From NCBI GenBank assembly GCA_029288535.1, contig JARIGY010000057.1:1-12703 (forward strand): 12,703 nt of DNA, in the 5' to 3' direction. This stretch comes from Candidatus Tayloriibacteriota bacterium (lineage in GTDB: Bacteria > Patescibacteriota > Minisyncoccia > Phycocordibacterales > JAKAEA01). The notes beneath the pieces were generated by a model that worked only from the letters and a program-made list of their open reading frames with translations, did no database searches and had not been told where the DNA came from. Positions 2,657-9,210 of the stretch are shown here, in pieces. Within the stretch, counting starts at the first letter, position 1, and each line of letters starts with the position of its first letter. Made by a program: the position numbers and the translations under genes.

Positions 2657-3121
2657 ATGGCCCAATACTGGATCTTAAAAAGTGAAGAGAGCTGCTATTC
2701 GATAGATGACATGCGGAAAGATGCGAAAAGCCTCTGGACCGGCATCCGCAATTATCAGGCCCGCAATTTTTTGCGCGAGATGAAAGCCGGAGATCAGGCG
2801 CTCTTTTACCATTCGAGTTCCGAACCGACTGGAGTCGCCGGTATCGTGAAAATAACAAAAATCGCCCAGGCCGACCCGACTGCTTTAGATAAAAAGGACG
2901 ATCATTTTGACCCCAAAGCAACCAAGGAAAACCCGATCTGGCTTGCGCCCGAAGTAGCCTTTTCCAAGAAATTCAAACGGGTGGTTTCGCTTACCGAAAT
3001 AAAGCGCCGACCCGAACTCGCCGGCATCGGTGTCGCGCAGCAGGGAAGCAGGCTTTCGGTTTTGCCGGTTTCCAAGGAGCATTTTGATATCATCACAAAA
3101 CTCAGCGATATTGTTTTGTAA
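2657..3121 (+). CDS. EVE domain protein (PUA superfamily)
   Basis: A 154-residue protein that begins MAQYWILKSEE, the hallmark of EVE domains. The internal WTGIRNYQARNFLREMKAGDQALFYHS and TGVAGIVKITK strands, then DPxATKENPIW and the FKRVVSLTEIK segment, cover the whole domain, so the protein is essentially one EVE fold of normal length (compare human THYN1). EVE domains bind modified cytosine or other modified bases in DNA or RNA and are often found near defence genes. It follows the CAP gene by five bases and is probably cotranscribed with it. It sits directly before the RNA locus that starts at about 3147, but a functional link is not shown. Confidence 0.9.
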   Translation: MAQYWILKSEESCYSIDDMRKDAKSLWTGIRNYQARNFLREMKAGDQALFYHSSSEPTGVAGIVKITKIAQADPTALDKKDDHFDPKATKENPIWLAPEVAFSKKFKRVVSLTEIKRRPELAGIGVAQQGSRLSVLPVSKEHFDIITKLSDIVL

Positions 3122-3146: not shown

Positions 3147-3174
3147 TTTACTTTTCGCAAAATCATGTTATTAT
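3147..3174 (+). promoter_or_regulatory. Promoter of RNA unit U1
   Basis: TTTACT (3147-3152), 16 nt, TATTAT (3169-3174). The -10 and the following CAAAA-TTTGCGGT stretch align base for base with the promoters of U2 and U4, which have the better -35 TTGACT. The predicted start is about 3180, at the first hairpin. Confidence 0.65.
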
Positions 3175-3177
3175 CAA

Positions 3178-3642
3178 AATTTGCGGTGTGAGGCTATATC
3201 TTTGTTCGATGTAGTACCGCATCTCTGCCGTTTGGTAATTCTCGCGGCAGGGACTGAGGTGAGCGCTTGCGTTTTTGGTTGGAGAATTACCTCACGTCTG
3301 TCCTCGACAGAAGATGCCGAGCAGACGCCTGCAGAGAGGAGCAAAGTTTTAGAAAATTGGAGTTCTGCACGTTTGCAGTGGTGAATAGCTATTGCAAACG
3401 CTTTGGGAGACAGTTGTTTTTTTTGTGAATCGTCATTCCCAACAGCATCCGTGCTGAATAAGTGCGGATGCTGATTACGGTGTATTTGGCTTTTTATGAA
3501 GAGGGGACTACCGTACACCAGCCAGCATTTAAACGTGTCGGCAGGTGATGAAGTTTTTTCTTGAAATGGGTAACCAGGTGCTTTTTTGAGTTTGGCTTTA
3601 CCCATGACCGCTTGTTTTCTCACGAAGACAGGCGGTTTTTTT
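3178..3642 (+). ncRNA. Structured RNA unit U1: six 28-nt hypervariable loops separated by constant hairpins
   Basis: Six hairpins each have a perfect 6-bp stem closing a 28-nt loop. They are TGCGGT/ACCGCA (loop 3188-3215), TGAGGT/ACCTCA (3261-3288), TGCAGA/TCTGCA (3336-3363), TTGGGA/TCCCAA (3409-3436), TACGGT/ACCGTA (3482-3509) and ATGGGT/ACCCAT (3572-3599). Between them lie constant hairpins: CTGCCG/CGGCAG (3225-3250), CGTCTG/CAGACG (3295-3327), CGTTTGCA/TGCAAACG (3370-3400), CAGCATCCG/CGGATGCTG (3443-3473) and CACC-GCC/GGC-GGTG (3516-3547). An 18-nt linker (3548-3565) precedes the last loop. The unit ends in a rho-independent terminator. No plausible open reading frame runs through it. A 28-nt loop in every stem, with sequence free to vary, suggests interchangeable recognition segments; the function is inferred only. 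Confidence 0.85.
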
Positions 3643-3643
3643 A
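3606..3643 (+). terminator. Terminator of U1
   Basis: The ACCGC...GTTTTC / GAA-GAC...GGCGGT hairpin is followed by seven T (3636-3642). It is the same terminator family as at the ends of U2, U3 and U4. Confidence 0.85.
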
Positions 3644-3659
3644 TTTGCGTTTTAAGAAT

Positions 3660-3693
3660 AAAGGCCGTCCCACATAGTTGGGACGGCCTTTTT
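3660..3693. terminator. Bidirectional terminator between U1 and the minus-strand gene
   Basis: A perfect 12-13-bp stem AAGGCCGTCCCA (3661-3672) / TGGGACGGCCTT (3679-3690), with a 6-nt loop. T-runs lie on the plus strand (3689-3693) and A residues (3658-3662) serve the minus strand. The minus-strand gene stops five bases before it. Confidence 0.9.
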
Positions 3694-3697
3694 GATT

Positions 3698-4042
3698 CTA
3701 CCGAGCATCTTGAACGGATTTGCCAAACGAAATTGCATACCCGTGGGTGGCTGCAAATTGAGCAAGGTGTGTCCGCGTTGCCTGGATATTGTCGGTAAAA
3801 ACTCGAATATCCTGCACATACAAATTCCCCCGAATTTGCAGCAAGATTGCACCGTTGATATCGGTGAATTTTACTCGATACTTTCCCCGTGCACCGCGGG
3901 CAGTTCGTTCTATTTTTCCGAGGGTGATGCGAGTCGCATACGGATCCCTGAGAGCTCCTTGGCACACTATGACTTCCGCCACTTCGATCATGGTGGTGTG
4001 GGTGTTGGTGATAACGGCTTTATGTCCGTTGGTTCGCTGCAT
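3698..4042 (-). CDS. Conserved-looking hypothetical protein within the RNA locus
   Basis: A 114-residue protein I do not recognise. The ATG at 4042-4040 has the best ribosome-binding site in the window (AAAGGAG, 4 nt before the ATG, minus strand). The gene ends with TAG five bases before a bidirectional terminator, and it has a promoter on the minus strand within 4081-4109. These signals make it a real gene rather than a shadow. The sequence is rich in alternating hydrophobic/polar beta-strand stretches (KAVITNT, MIEVAEVIVCQ, TRITLGKIERTA, KYRVKFTD, AILLQIRGNLYVQDIRVF), then a helix-like QATRTHLAQFAATHG, with many Arg/Lys. There is no signal peptide or membrane segment. It is transcribed divergently from U2 and shares a palindrome with U2's promoter, so it could be a regulator or an RNA-binding partner of the RNA units. 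That role is inference from position only. Confidence 0.75.
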   Translation of the reverse strand: MQRTNGHKAVITNTHTTMIEVAEVIVCQGALRDPYATRITLGKIERTARGARGKYRVKFTDINGAILLQIRGNLYVQDIRVFTDNIQATRTHLAQFAATHGYAISFGKSVQDAR

Positions 4043-4080
4043 GAGGCTCCTTTCGGTTGAATGAAATTAAATCTTTTTGC

Positions 4081-4109
4081 AATATATAATAATAAACGTG
4101 ATAAGTCAA
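4081..4109 (-). promoter_or_regulatory. Promoter of the minus-strand 114-residue gene
   Basis: On the minus strand, TTGACT (4109-4104), a 17-nt spacer and TATATT (4086-4081) lie about 40 bases before the start codon. The -35 is inside the left arm of the 4100-4129 inverted repeat. Confidence 0.55.
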
Positions 4110-4129
4110 ATTCAAGCATTTGACTTATC
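4100..4129. promoter_or_regulatory. 11-bp inverted repeat shared by two divergent promoters
   Basis: GATAAGTCAAA (4100-4110) and TTTGACTTATC (4119-4129) are perfect 11-bp arms around an 8-nt spacer. The right arm contains the -35 of U2 (TTGACT 4120-4125). The left arm contains the -35 of the minus-strand gene. It could be an operator, or simply two mirror-image -35 regions. Confidence 0.7.
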
Positions 4130-4147
4130 TCAATGCCCTGTTATTAT
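4120..4147 (+). promoter_or_regulatory. Promoter of RNA unit U2
   Basis: TTGACT (4120-4125), 16 nt, TATTAT (4142-4147), with a start expected near 4154, exactly before the first TGCGGT stem. Spacing and -10 are identical to the promoter of U4. Confidence 0.75.
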
Positions 4148-4150
4148 CCA

Positions 4151-4695
4151 AACCTGCGGTGTGCACAACGGTTCTTGAGGATGTCGTTACCGCATCTCTG
4201 CTGCTAGATAACTCTCGCGGCAGGGACTGAGGTGTGAGCCGAAGTTTTTGTTGAGACCGTGACCTCACGTTTGCAATGGTGAATAACTGTTGCAAACGCT
4301 TTGGAAGATTGTGCGACTATGAGATTTTTGAAGAAGACATTTACCGTACACCGGCCAGCATTTAAACGTGTCGGCAGGTGATGAGATGATGCGTTTCGTT
4401 ATTGTAAGTGCCGGCACCTCACACTTGCCAGGCAGAAATGTATGGGCAAGTGCTTGCAGAGTATTGAGTCGTCCGTGATGAAAGGAGTTCTGCACGTTTG
4501 CAGTGGTGAATAGCTATTGCAAACGCTTTGGGAGACAGTTGTTTTTTTGTGAATCGTCATTCCCAACAGCATCCGTGCTGAATAGGTTCGGATGTTGTTT
4601 GAAGTTCTTTCTTGGAATGGGTGAGAAGGTGGTTTTTTGAGATTGTTGCTACCCATGACCGTTTTGTTTTCTTAGGGGAAACAGAGCGGTTTTTT
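4151..4695 (+). ncRNA. Structured RNA unit U2: seven loop modules, chimeric order
   Basis: The loops are TGCGGT/ACCGCA (4161-4188), TGAGGT/ACCTCA (4234-4261), a degenerate left stem with ACCGTA (4315-4342), TGAGAT/ACCTCA (4388-4415, one stem mismatch), TGCAGA/TCTGCA (4461-4488), TTGGGA/TCCCAA (4534-4560, 27 nt) and ATGGGT/ACCCAT (4623-4650). The constant hairpins are the CTGCTG/CGGCAG type (4198-4223), CGTTTGCA/TGCAAACG twice (4268-4298 and 4495-4525), the CACC...GGTG type (4349-4380), a new CACTTGCC/GGCAAGTG (4422-4452) and CAGCATCCG/CGGATGTTG (4567-4597). Compared with U1, the second loop is followed by the third-type constant hairpin. The third loop has lost its left stem (TTGTGC at 4309-4314 where TACGGT is expected), which looks like a module-deletion scar. 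The 4528-4566 loop is identical to U1's except for one T. Confidence 0.82.
4657..4695 (+). terminator. Terminator of U2
   Basis: The ACCGTTTTGTTTTC...GGGAAACAGAGCGGT hairpin is followed by a T-run (4690-4695). It ends just before the upstream region of the IS110-like gene, so that gene needs its own promoter. Confidence 0.85.
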
Positions 4696-4720
4696 ATTGC
4701 TCAAGCATAATCCACAATTG

Positions 4721-4748
4721 TTGACTTATGTAAATATTAATGTTAATT
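4721..4748 (+). promoter_or_regulatory. Possible promoter of the IS110-like gene
   Basis: TTGACT (4721-4726), 16 nt, TTAATT (4743-4748). The -35 and spacing match those of the RNA units, but the -10 is weak. The leader would be about 60 nt and includes the 4790-4804 hairpin. Confidence 0.4.
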
Positions 4749-4789
4749 TAGCGCGAGTTGCTCGTTGTAATAAATTCGAAATTTACTGT

Positions 4790-4804
4790 TCCGCCTCAGG
4801 CGGA
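4790..4804 (+). promoter_or_regulatory. Hairpin abutting the ribosome-binding site of the IS110-like gene
   Basis: TCCGCC-TCA-GGCGGA forms a 6-bp stem whose right arm runs into the purine-rich GGAGAAAGGGG Shine-Dalgarno region before ATG 4817. It could limit translation of the protein. Confidence 0.45.
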
Positions 4805-4816
4805 GAAAGGGGCTTT

Positions 4817-6202
4817 ATGCCTCGCATCATTGGAATCCGTCATCAGGAAAAGGGGACCGTCGCCGGCGAAATGCGCCCGACCCAGTTCTTCATCCTCGAA
4901 GATGACGGCGCAAGCTCGACGCTCGAGTTTGAAGACGTGCTCGGTGAGCTCAACTGGCTGGTCGGCAAATACGCTCTCGGTTTCCGAGAGGTGACCGATC
5001 GGACGGAAGATCTCTCGATGCATGCCGGCAGCATCAAATTCGGCCCATGCGCCGAGGGTGAAAACCTCAGCGGTTTTCACCCTTCCCAACTCTTGAAGGA
5101 GAAGGGGAAAGTCAAAGTTGCGCGCAAGGTACCATCCTTGTACGACGGCGTCCGTCCCGACGACATCTATGTCGCCATGATGGGCGGCTCCGGGCATCAG
5201 CTCGTGGCAGGCCTGTCGGCGCGACTGGAGAAACTCGGCGGTTCAGGCGCGGCGTATCACGTTCCGCCAAACCGCATCGCCGACCGTTACGGCAAGGACC
5301 GCGACAAGGACAATGACGCGTTCCTCGTGATCGGCTTTTTCAAGTCCAATCCGGAACTTTTCTACAAGGTTCTGGTCCAGGACAGGCTCATCGCCAATGT
5401 GAAGTCATGCTGGGCCAACCGCAAGGCGGCCCAGTTTGCCCGCATTGCCCACGGTCTTCGGCTCAGGAAGGTTGCGCTTCTCAAAGCGTATGCCGAACCG
5501 GAAGCGTATGCCGGCGCCGGACTCGAAGTGGAAACCTTGAAGTTCATCGCCGGCGACATCGACACGAAGGATCTCGAGTCGGACGAAAGCGCTGCGACCA
5601 CCGCATTGAAAAATGCCGTCGAAGCGACTGAAGTCTGGACGAAGATTTTCGATCCGCTCGAAGGCGTCGGTCCTGCTATCGCTGGCGGCATCATTGCCGC
5701 TATCGGTGACATCCGCCGTTTCAAAACACCGTGGCAGCTCGCAAAGTTCTGCGGCGTGGCCTGTGTCACCAAGGACGTGAAAGGCAGTCCGCTTGCCCGG
5801 GCGACGATCCAGCGTCGACGTTCCGGCGAGTTCTCGGGTTGGAATAACGACGCCCGCAAATGTCTTTGGAATTTCGCCGATCAATGCAACCGCCGACCCA
5901 GTTCGGTCTGGGGTCAGCATCTCTTGGCGATCAAGGCCAAGACGCTCGAGCTTCATCCCGAGCCGGTCGAGGAAACTAGTTCGACTGGTAAAAAGATCAA
6001 GCGGTACACCAAAGGGCACATCCACAAGATGGCGATCTGGCGCTTGCAGACCGATTTCATTTGCGTCATCTGGCGCCAGTGGAAGCGCGTCTTCAAGTAC
6101 CCGGGTGACTTGTACTACACGAAGAACAAGAATGACCTTCGTCCTCCGGGCAGCCGGAACACGGACATCATCACCGAAGATCTGAAGGAAGATGCGGCGT
6201 AG
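4817..6202 (+). CDS. IS110-family transposase-like protein with an altered DEDD catalytic domain
   Basis: 461 residues from ATG 4817, which has a strong purine Shine-Dalgarno (GGAGAAAGGGG). The frame is open to a TTG at 4697 but nothing supports that start. The C-terminal half contains the IS116/IS110/IS902 transposase domain: LEGVGPAIAGGIIAAIGDIRRFKTPWQLAKFCGV at 281-314, then SGEFSGWNNDARKCLWNF with a Ser (336) near the position of the IS110 nucleophile. The N-terminal half resembles the RuvC-like DEDD domain by strand pattern: IIGIR at 4-8, FFILEDDG at 24-31, IYVAMMGGSG at 117-126, and YGKDRDKDNDAF at 158-169. In IS110 proteins the first strand ends in GID (Asp), the third carries E in the ExTG motif and the last is DxxDA. 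Here I see GIR, MGGSG and KDNDA, so at least two of four acidic residues appear missing. It is longer than typical family members (about 320-400). No terminal repeats were found. It lies between U2 and U3. Confidence 0.8.
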   Translation: MPRIIGIRHQEKGTVAGEMRPTQFFILEDDGASSTLEFEDVLGELNWLVGKYALGFREVTDRTEDLSMHAGSIKFGPCAEGENLSGFHPSQLLKEKGKVKVARKVPSLYDGVRPDDIYVAMMGGSGHQLVAGLSARLEKLGGSGAAYHVPPNRIADRYGKDRDKDNDAFLVIGFFKSNPELFYKVLVQDRLIANVKSCWANRKAAQFARIAHGLRLRKVALLKAYAEPEAYAGAGLEVETLKFIAGDIDTKDLESDESAATTALKNAVEATEVWTKIFDPLEGVGPAIAGGIIAAIGDIRRFKTPWQLAKFCGVACVTKDVKGSPLARATIQRRRSGEFSGWNNDARKCLWNFADQCNRRPSSVWGQHLLAIKAKTLELHPEPVEETSSTGKKIKRYTKGHIHKMAIWRLQTDFICVIWRQWKRVFKYPGDLYYTKNKNDLRPPGSRNTDIITEDLKEDAA

Positions 6203-6227
6203 TCTTCTGTCCTGCTTGCAATTACGC

Positions 6228-6507
6228 ATTCTTCAGGCTTTAGAAATGGAGCTTGAAGAATTGAGGTGACAGTACGGTTTTGTGTAATGCAAAATACCTC
6301 ACGTCTGACTTCCAAGCAGAAAGAGCTTGGCAGACGCTTACGGTGATCATGATCTTTTTTGAATGGAAGTATACCGTACATCTGTCAAGATTGAATAAGT
6401 TTTGGCAGGTGATGAAGTTCTTTCGTGAAATGGGTGAGCTTAGTGATTTTTGAGGGAGGCCATACCCATGACCGCTTTGTTTTCTTCGGGAAACAGAGCG
6501 GTTTTTT
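6228..6507 (+). ncRNA. Structured RNA unit U3: three 28-nt loops, lying in the 3' region of the IS110-like gene
   Basis: It starts 25 bases after the IS110-like stop with a hairpin found nowhere else, ATTCTTCA (6228-6235) / TGAAGAAT (6254-6261). Loops TGAGGT/ACCTCA (6268-6295), TACGGT/ACCGTA (6345-6372) and ATGGGT/ACCCAT (6436-6463) follow. The constant hairpins are CGTCTG/CAGACG (6302-6336), with a fully paired inner stem CCAAGC/GCTTGG, and CATCTGTCAA/TTGGCAGGTG (6379-6411). Unlike U1, U2 and U4 it lacks the first TGCGGT module and any clear promoter. It is probably transcribed with the protein gene as its 3' untranslated region, possibly then processed. Its 5' end is therefore uncertain. 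Confidence 0.78.
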
Positions 6508-6508
6508 A
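6470..6508 (+). terminator. Terminator of U3 and of the IS110-like transcript
   Basis: The ACCGCTTTGTTTTC-TTCG-GGAAACAGAGCGGT hairpin has six T (6502-6507). A second small hairpin CCGAGA/TCTCGG (6513-6534) follows. Confidence 0.88.
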
Positions 6509-6569
6509 TTGCCCGAGAATGATGTCTATCTCGGATTTTACAGAGGTCACAGCTACGTAAAACATTTAT

Positions 6570-6597
6570 TTGACTTTCTATAAAATCCTGTTATTAT
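6570..6597 (+). promoter_or_regulatory. Promoter of RNA unit U4
   Basis: TTGACT (6570-6575), 16 nt, TATTAT (6592-6597). The start is expected near 6604, just before TGCGGT. Confidence 0.75.
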
Positions 6598-6603
6598 ACA
6601 AAC

Positions 6604-6920
6604 TTGCGGTGTATGTGCCAGTTTCTGAAGAAAGGAGTACCGCATCTCTGTCGTTTGGTAACTCTGGCGGCAGGGACTGAGGTGACAACATAGCTTCTTG
6701 TAGAAAGGCTTACCCCACGTCTGTCCTCGGCAGAAGATGCCCAGCAGACGCTTACGGTGGCGTGTGAATTTCATGAATGCCACTTTACCGTACATCTGCC
6801 GGCATTTAAACGTGTTGGCACGTGCTGATGTTCTTTCGTGAAATGGGTGAGCTTAGTGATTTTTGATGGAGGCCATACCCATGACCGCTTCGTTTTCTTC
6901 GGGAAACAGAGCGGTTTTTT
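6604..6920 (+). ncRNA. Structured RNA unit U4: four 28-nt loops, the simplest complete unit
   Basis: The loops are TGCGGT/ACCGCA (6611-6638), TGAGGT/ACCCCA (6684-6711, one stem mismatch), TACGGT/ACCGTA (6759-6786) and ATGGGT/ACCCAT (6849-6876). The constant hairpins are CTGTCG/CGGCAG (6648-6673), CGTCTG/CAGACG (6718-6750) and the CATCTGCC...GGCACGTG type (6793-6824), then an 18-nt linker (6825-6842) shared with U1 and U3. The last loop differs from U3's by one base, so U3 and U4 share a recent duplication of this module. The predicted RNA is about 315 nt, a good reference architecture for searching for relatives. Confidence 0.85.
6883..6920 (+). terminator. Terminator of U4
   Basis: The ACCGCTTCGTTTTC-TTCG-GGAAACAGAGCGGT hairpin and T-run (6915-6920) are almost identical to the U3 terminator. 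Confidence 0.88.
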
Positions 6921-6935
6921 ATTGTCGAAAAATAC

Positions 6936-7305: not shown

Positions 7306-7866
7306 ATGGCTATGAAAAAATACGGATTTACCTGCAGCGCATTCGATCTCTGTCATGCCGGCCACATGCTGCTTTTCAAGGAGGCAAAAGAGCATTGCGA
7401 ATATCTGATCGTCGGACTTCAGGATGACCCGTCGGCGGACAATCATATCAATATGCAGTATCGCGGAAAGCTCAAGAATAAACCGATCATGTCCCTTGCC
7501 GAGCGCAAGACTGTCTTGGAAAGTATCAGGCATATCGATGAGATTTTCATCTATCGCAACGAAACGGATCTTTACGAAAACTTGCAGCGCCTGATCCATG
7601 AAGGCCGGTTTGAGATGCGGTTCATCGGTGATGATTACAAAGGCAAGCACTATACCGGCGACGATCTGCCGCACGAGATCTACTATGTCGGCCGCGATCA
7701 TGGCTACTCGACATCGGAGCTTCGCCAGCGGGTCTATGAAGCCGAGCGCGAGCGTCTGGAAGAATCAGGCCGGGAAAAGCCTGAAAAAAAGCAGCCTAAT
7801 TTCGGCAGGCGTTTTGCCGACAATATCAGGAACAAGGACACGGGACATTCTACCCAGCCTGCATAA
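7306..7866 (+). CDS. Cytidylyltransferase-like nucleotidyltransferase (TagD/HIGH family)
   Basis: 186 residues. The HxGH signature (CHAGH, H17-H20) follows the first strand. AERKTVLESIRHIDEIF at 65-81, FIGDDYKGK at 107-114 and the closing GYSTSELRQRV (S135-S137) are the other nucleotide-binding motifs of the glycerol-3-phosphate / ethanolamine-phosphate cytidylyltransferase superfamily. These transfer a CMP or AMP moiety to a phosphorylated alcohol or sugar, often for envelope polymers; the substrate here cannot be decided. The last ~35 residues are a charged tail. ATG at 7306 or 7312 is possible. TATCAT (7292-7297) ends eight bases before 7306, so the mRNA may be nearly leaderless. Its 3' end overlaps the convergent sugar-phosphate mutase by 17 bases. 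Confidence 0.85.
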   Translation: MAMKKYGFTCSAFDLCHAGHMLLFKEAKEHCEYLIVGLQDDPSADNHINMQYRGKLKNKPIMSLAERKTVLESIRHIDEIFIYRNETDLYENLQRLIHEGRFEMRFIGDDYKGKHYTGDDLPHEIYYVGRDHGYSTSELRQRVYEAERERLEESGREKPEKKQPNFGRRFADNIRNKDTGHSTQPA

Positions 7867-8746
7867 CGAGCGCCTGTATTTTTTCAACGAGCATGTCGCT
7901 CTCGGACTCCGTTCCGGTTCCGGCATAGATCCGCAATATCGGTTCGGTATTCGAAGGGCGGATATTGACCCAGCCGGCCGGCAGCTGCAGCGTAATGCCT
8001 TCGCGGCGTTCGATGTGCGCATCCTCTGACGCATAGGTACCGATAATTCTCTTCTGAATGGCTTCCCAATTTTTGCCTGCTATTTTCAGGTCGATATTTT
8101 TTACCGAATGCTGGGGCAAAGTTGCGACAAATTCGGAAAGGGCCTGTGGCATGGAGGAAAGAATGGAAAGCACGCGGATCATAGCAAAAATGCCCGAATC
8201 GGCGCCGAAGAAATCTTTGAAGTAAAAATGGCCAGAAAACTCGGCACCGGTCGTAGCCTGGACCTGCTTCATGACTTGCTTGATGAAGAATACGCCGACT
8301 CGGGAAGGGTGGAGCTCGCCGTGCTTGAAGAGCTTCATGTGATGAAGCGCCTGGTACACGAGTTCGTCTGCCACGAATGGCGCTTCGGAATGCCGGAAGA
8401 GCAACGCGGCAATCGCAATGGAAGTCAGGACATTGCCTTTCTCATCGATAAAAAATGCCCGGTCGCCGTCGGCATCGAATGCAACGCCGAAGTCCGCCTT
8501 TTTTTCTACTACAGTTTTACAGAGTCCGTCCAGAACGCCTGGTAGCATCGGGTTCGGGCCGTGAGCGGGGAACTCAGGGTCGGGATTCTCGTTGAGAAGC
8601 GTATAATTATTTAAGCCGAGCTCAGGCAGGAGCTTCTTCAGGATCTCGCCGGTCGCGCCATTGGAGCAGTCGCAGACGATGGAAAGCGGGCGTTCGAGCT
8701 TTGTGTGCTTTTTTATAAAATTGGTGTAGAGGGAAACGTAATCCAT
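7850..8746 (-). CDS. Phosphomannomutase/phosphoglucomutase, domains II-IV (downstream part of split gene)
   Basis: 298 residues carrying the metal-binding loop DADGDR (91-96), the sugar-binding GAEFSGHFYFKD loop of domain III and the phosphate-binding RPSNTEPILRIYAGT of domain IV. Domain I, with the phosphoserine, is encoded just upstream at 8756-9169. The two frames are the same, with a TAA and nine bases between them. The ATG at 8746 has no Shine-Dalgarno, so its translation would depend on reinitiation or readthrough. The enzyme interconverts hexose-1- and hexose-6-phosphates for envelope glycans. All motifs are intact, which argues for a functional two-piece enzyme, a very recent nonsense mutation, or a sequence error. 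Confidence 0.82.
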   Translation of the reverse strand: MDYVSLYTNFIKKHTKLERPLSIVCDCSNGATGEILKKLLPELGLNNYTLLNENPDPEFPAHGPNPMLPGVLDGLCKTVVEKKADFGVAFDADGDRAFFIDEKGNVLTSIAIAALLFRHSEAPFVADELVYQALHHMKLFKHGELHPSRVGVFFIKQVMKQVQATTGAEFSGHFYFKDFFGADSGIFAMIRVLSILSSMPQALSEFVATLPQHSVKNIDLKIAGKNWEAIQKRIIGTYASEDAHIERREGITLQLPAGWVNIRPSNTEPILRIYAGTGTESESDMLVEKIQALVMQAG

Positions 8747-8755
8747 GGTAGGGAA

Positions 8756-9169
8756 TTAAGCGAGCTTATTGTTGGTAATAAATTCCAGGATCTCAACTCC
8801 TGGTACCATTTCGGCGCCGGAGCGCACGACTTTCATGCCGTTATAATTTTTCGGGTTATGCGAAGCGGTGATCATCACGCCGCCGCTTGCTTTGAAGTGG
8901 TTGACCAAAAAATAGAACATCGGCGTGGAAGAGAGGCCGACATTCCTTGCCGATATTTTTTTATTGAGTTTTTCCGCCTCGCTTTCCAGTGTGGTTTGGA
9001 CTTCTAGCGCAAGCTCCGGCGAACCGTGCCTGGCGTCATATGCCACGATGATTTCGCCTTCAGGCATCATGCGCGCCACGGCTTTTGCTACCGTTGCTGC
9101 GACCTGTTCGTTGACATCGGCGGGGTATATGCCCCGGATGTCGTATGCTTTGAAAATGGCTGTGTTCAT
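8756..9169 (-). CDS. Phosphomannomutase/phosphoglucomutase, domain I (upstream part of split gene)
   Basis: 137 residues from ATG 9169 (MNTAIFKAYDIRGIYP, the standard N-terminus; a TTG nine bases earlier is also in frame). It contains the catalytic phosphoserine loop TASHNPKNYNGMK (S103) and ends with ILEFITNNKLA-TAA. In intact homologues this point is followed by a short linker and the DYVS...F helix, which here opens the next frame. Together the two parts give about 438 residues, close to the usual 450-460. A divergent intergenic region (9170-9268) separates it from the next genes. Confidence 0.82.
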   Translation of the reverse strand: MNTAIFKAYDIRGIYPADVNEQVAATVAKAVARMMPEGEIIVAYDARHGSPELALEVQTTLESEAEKLNKKISARNVGLSSTPMFYFLVNHFKASGGVMITASHNPKNYNGMKVVRSGAEMVPGVEILEFITNNKLA

Positions 9170-9210
9170 GCTGATCAATAATTACACAATAATAGACTGT
9201 AAAATACGCA

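Follow-up and report, generated by a model that had tools for sequence, protein, structure and literature searches.

Stem-loop TIGR arrays were described by Faure et al. 2025 (PMC12045711), who also reported, in the sections of their paper on which all comparisons with it here draw, a Patescibacteria TasR clade with an inactive RuvC domain, large Nop insertions and stem arrays. The same sections describe a TIGR-TasA array on a Peromyscus gut contig, where 13 stem-loops stand in three sub-arrays and are processed in the linkers, as well as TasR loop repeats with a closing Watson-Crick pair; they leave open the role of nuclease-lacking TIGR systems, spacer renewal and targets. Among open-licence papers, no other title or abstract beginning on the Patescibacteria clade was found. 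Here we analyze a 12,703-nucleotide (nt) stretch of a Candidatus Tayloriibacteriota bacterium contig (JARIGY010000057.1; the window), in which four units of hairpin modules (U1–U4) flank a gene of the tas type. With a probability of about 88%, the locus is a stem-loop TIGR array with a TIGR-Tas effector whose RuvC-like domain is predicted to be dead, and it belongs to a known, recent and little-studied kind. This reading follows from the anatomy of the modules, from the profile match and fold of the protein, and from the same anatomy beside related proteins. An earlier note on this DNA had known of no described RNA family with such a plan, a statement overtaken by the stem-loop TIGR arrays of that paper.

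The locus contains twenty modules, with all 20 loop coordinates as the earlier note had them (Table 1). The loop is 28 nt long in 19 of the 20 and 27 nt in one, where a single T is missing from a T-run, and stacking the loops bore out this part of the note too. Between positions 3100 and 6960, 16 perfect inverted repeats of 6 base pairs (bp) enclose a loop of exactly 28 nt, compared with a mean of 1.06 and a maximum of 4 in 200 dinucleotide shuffles of the same interval; no other loop length from 16 to 50 gave more than seven inverted repeats, and no length did so in any of the shuffles. When the degenerate third module of U2 (U2-3) is excluded, perfect 6-bp Watson-Crick stems of six types are found in 17 of 19 modules, and 112 of 114 stem cells are paired, against a mean of 73.2 and a maximum of 94 in 2000 re-deals of the left and right arms. 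Base pairs vary at five of the six stem positions, and the re-dealt arms lose their pairing. The predicted fold of the U1 RNA beats 100 of 100 shuffles (z −7.25), with guide hairpins that mostly alternate with linker hairpins and one linker that opens into a branched fold. The U4 RNA also beats all of its shuffles (z −3.75); in its minimum-energy fold the guide hairpins are not visible as separate stems.

The stack of 20 loops divides into conserved columns (1–2, 12–18 and 28) and variable ones (3–11 and 19–27), so that the loop is not the free sequence it had been taken for. Each 28-nt loop is made up of a 2-nt box C tail, a 9-nt spacer A, a 7-nt loop repeat, a 9-nt spacer B and 1 nt of box D. 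Positions 1–2 are mostly G followed by A or T, positions 12–18 follow T-Y-Y-N-T-G-(A/T), and position 28 is mostly T. When the last stem base is included, the left edge reads U-GA or U-GU in most modules and A-GA or A-GU in the TGCAGA and TTGGGA stem types, and the loop block mostly ends in UGA or UGU. Box C therefore agrees between edge and loop as UGA/UGU in most window modules, with an edge A for U in the TGCAGA and TTGGGA types. Judged by these motifs, the order within a module is the TIGR guide plan of box C, spacer A, box D', box C', spacer B and box D, and palindromic stems stand in for edge repeats, as in the stem-loop subtype. The constancy at 28 nt arises because two fixed 9-nt spacers are joined by a loop repeat of only 7 nt. 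A loop measured by something, as for a guide held in a protein, is still the best reading, and the protein is encoded in the locus; the measured quantity is 9+9 rather than 28.

The 461-residue protein scores 126.3 bits against NF052498 (NCBIfam TIGR_Tas_endo; cut-off 100), and the best match of its predicted structure among solved structures is TasR (9mty). Strand 1 of the RuvC-like domain has no acidic residue in any of the 23 aligned proteins, and the domain is predicted to be catalytically inactive. IS110/IS621 bridge-RNA recombinases share the Nop and RuvC-like fold and carry split guides in hairpin loops. An IS110-type mobile element, with a DNA-moving protein and with hairpins serving as target and donor loops of a bridge-RNA-like RNA, is nevertheless very improbable: the NCBIfam transpos_IS110 profile gave 34.7 bits against a cut-off of 140, whereas TIGR_Tas_endo passed its own; the first-strand acidic residue is missing throughout the alignment; the gene is single-copy in its genome; four units of three to seven modules replace the one two-loop RNA of the recombinases; and three relatives occupy one syntenic site.

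Proteins matching at E <1e-24 were found in 18 of 397 genomes of the order, and at E <1e-100 in 10 of 380 genomes of the phylum, with the own genome counted in each case; four other genomes of the family gave no match to the protein. Its closest relatives (P0002–P0004) are 55–63% identical. Relatives were taken from the best 80 of 106 in a genome-contig scan, and 38 loci (L006–L043, E 1e-31 or better) were used in the array survey. Hairpins with the same 9+9 plan stand beside 31 of these 38 loci, as the earlier note had expected of homologous arrays. From the 31 loci, 166 hairpins were chosen only by a stem of at least 8 and a closing C-G pair, with the loop range searched from 28 to 44 nt. 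They read GA-N9-TG ... CGA-N9-T, with 0.01–0.10 bits per position in the nine spacer positions on either side and 0.6–1.4 bits in the box positions. Loops measure 31–43 nt in 162 of the 166, and the drift falls within the loop repeat while both 9-nt spacers stay constant; the fixed length expected of homologues thus held for the spacers but not for the whole loop. Box C is consistent between edge and loop within each locus, being CGA in most, CAA in L026 and L043, and CTA in L011. In L026 three modules have 9-nt loop repeats, which makes the 7 nt of the window the short end of a range. By sequence inspection, the tas locus of three Uhrbacteria (L035, L036 and L042) lies at one site beside nusG-rplK-rplA-like genes, and the neighbourhood of other relatives includes thrS-like, dnaE-like or fusA-like genes.

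The closest described relative is the Patescibacteria TasR clade, which has in common with the window a RuvC-Nop protein predicted to be inactive, two-spacer hairpins between boxes C and D, and hosts from the candidate phyla radiation; that paper gives spacers of 8–12 nt, and those here are 9 nt. The window differs from the clade's main-text description in its loop repeat, which is only 7 nt long and lacks a closing pair, and in its box C (UGA/UGU) from the CGA of most relatives. Nor does the window protein show the large Nop insertion of the published clade: P0011, P0015 and P0020 have a long insertion following residue 302 that is missing here, and we therefore file the locus in the TIGR-Tas system and the stem-loop subtype rather than in the clade as worded. 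The TasA array likewise consists of stem-loops with spacers flanked by boxes C and D, but TasA has no nuclease domain, whereas the window encodes a RuvC-like domain, and its array has four units. Dual-repeat TIGR-TasR and TasH systems (9mty, 9w04) share the protein core and the 9-nt spacer pairs (8 nt in SpTIGR) between edge and loop motifs; in the window the edges are hairpins with varied stems in place of a constant edge repeat, and an active nuclease is not predicted. The distinctive points here are a 7-nt loop repeat that lacks a closing pair, the UGA/UGU box C and the exchange of guides on kept scaffolds.

This exchange was seen in 20 pairs of modules of the same stem type (18 of the 20 modules), in which identity is 71% in each of the 20-nt flanks and 33 and 37% in spacers A and B, respectively; the stems of these pairs agree by construction and do not count as evidence. 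Once two guide-sharing pairs are removed, identity falls to 42/162 (26%) for spacer A and 50/162 (31%) for spacer B, where 25% is expected by chance. The claim that six stem types recur with different loops is mostly right, with the exception of U1-4 and U2-6, which have the same guide, and of U3-3 and U4-4, which differ at one of 18 guide positions; the related claim, that each type keeps the same relative place across units, holds only roughly in U2, which contains an inserted stretch. Two Uhrbacteria arrays hardly align apart from one module (L036:4525–4576 and L042:3259–3310) that is 94% identical, with a guide pair identical at 18 of 18 positions, a compensatory stem exchange from G-C to A-U and one loop-repeat change. 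No other guide pair of these two (10 and 22 guides) lies within five mismatches, and the loci share one syntenic site with Tas-region DNA 75–82% identical. Guides therefore turn over on kept scaffolds, with one guide retained between two Uhrbacteria, and the 18/18 pair hints at selection on some guides. Separately, two guide pairs are duplicated within L023 (396, 848, 3946 and 4496) with one mismatch each.

By analogy with published TIGR-Tas work, the array would be transcribed, here as four RNAs, single hairpins would be released by cutting in the linkers, and guides would be loaded through box C (UGA/UGU) and box D. The variable 9-nt spacers would then probably direct the effector to DNA of matching sequence, and the prediction is that it binds this DNA without cutting it. 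The outcome is less certain: transcription or replication of the target DNA may be blocked, and the system may act as a silencer of foreign elements or as a regulator. More speculatively, Patescibacteria might keep chromosomal nuclease-dead TIGR systems as a programmable DNA-binding switchboard, in which both spacers are exchanged by some process without change to stems, linkers and boxes and some guides are kept by selection, the guide RNA of this lineage having shrunk to a 7-nt loop repeat that only the protein holds; we consider this doubtful as a whole. The locus and its relatives, with guides differing on kept scaffolds and one pair conserved across two species, offer handles on the role of nuclease-lacking systems, on spacer renewal and on targets. 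The small guide RNA shows that a Tas protein may manage with a very short loop repeat, which would matter for compact engineered guides.

Box C/D small nucleolar ribonucleoproteins (Nop5, Nop56/58) also combine a Nop fold and a dead RuvC-like domain with guides anchored by boxes C and D, and they differ in having RNA targets, a k-turn with L7, and fibrillarin. A comparable system here would pair its 9-nt spacers with cellular RNA such as ribosomal RNA (rRNA), and its RuvC-like domain would recruit an enzyme for modification in the way that Nop5 recruits fibrillarin. Guides antisense to rRNA showed no excess over shuffles in family-member rRNA and the part of the own rRNA that was available. 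The 38 window spacers gave no exact match in either sense to the family-member small-subunit (SSU) and large-subunit (LSU) rRNA or to two own-genome rRNA pieces, and 348 relatives' spacers gave 2 and 2 matches (SSU) and 6 and 6 (LSU) in the two senses, compared with 1.98 and 6.00 in shuffles. One count was an outlier at up to one mismatch, the own 23S piece giving 10 against 2.5; the orientation was the non-pairing one. No partner-gene candidate recurs in more than 5 of 39 loci, and on these rRNA and gene-neighbourhood results we regard an RNA-targeting system as unlikely. A candidate 16S rRNA target of the conserved Uhrbacteria guide gained no support from the SSU rRNA of the family member, in which spacer A in the pairing sense had at least two mismatches.

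Several points weigh against the reading of the locus as a stem-loop TIGR array with a DNA-binding effector, and they concern both its parts and its targets. The 7-nt loop repeat cannot form a closing Watson-Crick pair, and box D is mostly UA at the edge and UU or UC in the loop, with only the first U common to both. The survey of relatives' arrays covers L006–L043 and excludes P0002–P0004, and four loci with a related protein (L014, L020, L030 and L034) showed no clear array, some of them on contigs that are cut short. Catalytic inactivity is a reading of the sequence in which the first-strand position is the one closely examined. The region as a whole has 14 promoter-like and 8 terminator-like sites compared with shuffle means of 3.9 and 5.5, and these are consensus matches. 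One of the 20 modules is degenerate (U2-3, apparently a remnant in which the left half of a TTGGGA-type module is fused to the right half of a TACGGT-type one), and the stems of U2-4 and U4-2 have one A-C mismatch each. Together with the 27-nt loop, these defects could mark a decaying remnant that is out of use; we think this scarcely credible given 17 of 19 perfect stems across six types, a 461-codon open frame in which the invariant residues of the family are retained, and similar promoter-like sites before three units and end hairpins after all four.

With respect to targets, the own genome (784825 of 792295 bp) was searched with 19 guides for spacer A followed by the reverse complement of spacer B, with a gap of 0–2. 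There were no sites at 0–1 mismatches, 6 at two and 35 at three (41 in total), level with the controls: three wrong geometries gave 46, 36 and 36 sites, among which two sites had one mismatch, and six re-dealt pairings with slightly fewer guides gave between 27 and 37, a 1-mismatch site occurring in three of these pairings. Within their own loci, 194 modules had one site at up to two mismatches compared with 5, 1 and 1 in controls. In viral contigs, guide U1-4 matched 18 records exactly against 2 for its one wrong-geometry control, and the guide of U3-3/U4-4 had no exact match. The 18 records represent four contexts, since 13 share one conserved stretch, 3 share a second and 2 stand alone, and with four contexts against two we read the excess as chance multiplied by related records; given the single control, the main context of 13 records may be a real U1-4 target. 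In that stretch (L247–L250, L252–L255, L257, L259, L260, L262 and L263) the U1-4 sites have a 2-nt gap. The conserved Uhrbacteria guide had 13 sites at up to three mismatches and gaps of 0–2 in two genomes (its carrier G759, and G760, which holds L035), compared with 5 for a reversed-pattern control, and 7 compared with 4 in G759 alone; none had 0–1 mismatches and one had two, inside an ABC-ATPase-like gene (named by eye), which amounts to a mild excess and no target. The U1-4 matches in viral records and the sites of the conserved Uhrbacteria guide lean slightly towards targeting. A scan for the protein in viral contigs gave two weak matches. The own-genome, own-locus and viral scans thus established no natural target, and with 18-base guides and metagenome-assembled genome data they are weak evidence against self-targeting and none against the targeting of mobile DNA.

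The units and their expression signals are collected in Table 1. The TG-TATTAT promoter-like sites stop 7 bases before the first stem of U1, U2 and U4, and U3, judged by its position, is probably transcribed together with the tas gene. Similar T-run hairpins close all four units; three were listed by the terminator scan, and that of U4, absent from the list, was seen in the predicted fold and the unit alignment.

Table 1. Array units, expression signals and effector gene in the window
Feature	Positions	Strand	Description
Unit U1	3182..3637	+	Six guide hairpins alternating with linkers; loops 3188-3215, 3261-3288, 3336-3363, 3409-3436, 3482-3509, 3572-3599
Unit U2	4155..4691	+	Seven modules; loops 4161-4188, 4234-4261, 4315-4342 (degenerate), 4388-4415, 4461-4488, 4534-4560 (27 nt), 4623-4650
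Unit U3	6262..6503	+	Three modules; loops 6268-6295, 6345-6372, 6436-6463; no TATTAT promoter-like site
Unit U4	6605..6925	+	Four modules; loops 6611-6638, 6684-6711, 6759-6786, 6849-6876; ends in terminator-like hairpin
U1 promoter-like site	3147..3174	+	TTTACT-16-TATTAT, TG before second hexamer; consensus match only
U2 promoter-like site	4120..4147	+	TTGACT-16-TATTAT, TG before second hexamer; consensus match
U4 promoter-like site	6570..6597	+	TTGACT-16-TATTAT, TG before second hexamer; consensus match
U1 terminator-like hairpin	3606..3637	+	Scan match
U2 terminator-like hairpin	4657..4691	+	Scan match
U3 terminator-like hairpin	6470..6503	+	Scan match
TIGR-Tas effector, TasR type	4817..6202	+	461 amino acids; RuvC-like domain (predicted inactive), coiled coil, Nop domain

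In general scans of the window, Rfam gave a single match below its gathering score (mir-3179 at 34–106, outside the array), and PADLOC had no match for 3 proteins. An EVE-domain protein is encoded just upstream of U1 on the forward strand (2657–3121; Pfam E 2.9e-50), and the reverse strand between U1 and U2 encodes a small protein (3698–4042) that only just passes the DUF2103 cut-off (22.8 against 22.4 bits). A phosphomannomutase-like gene, named by eye, occupies two reading frames at 7850–9178 on the reverse strand and is either a broken gene or an assembly error.
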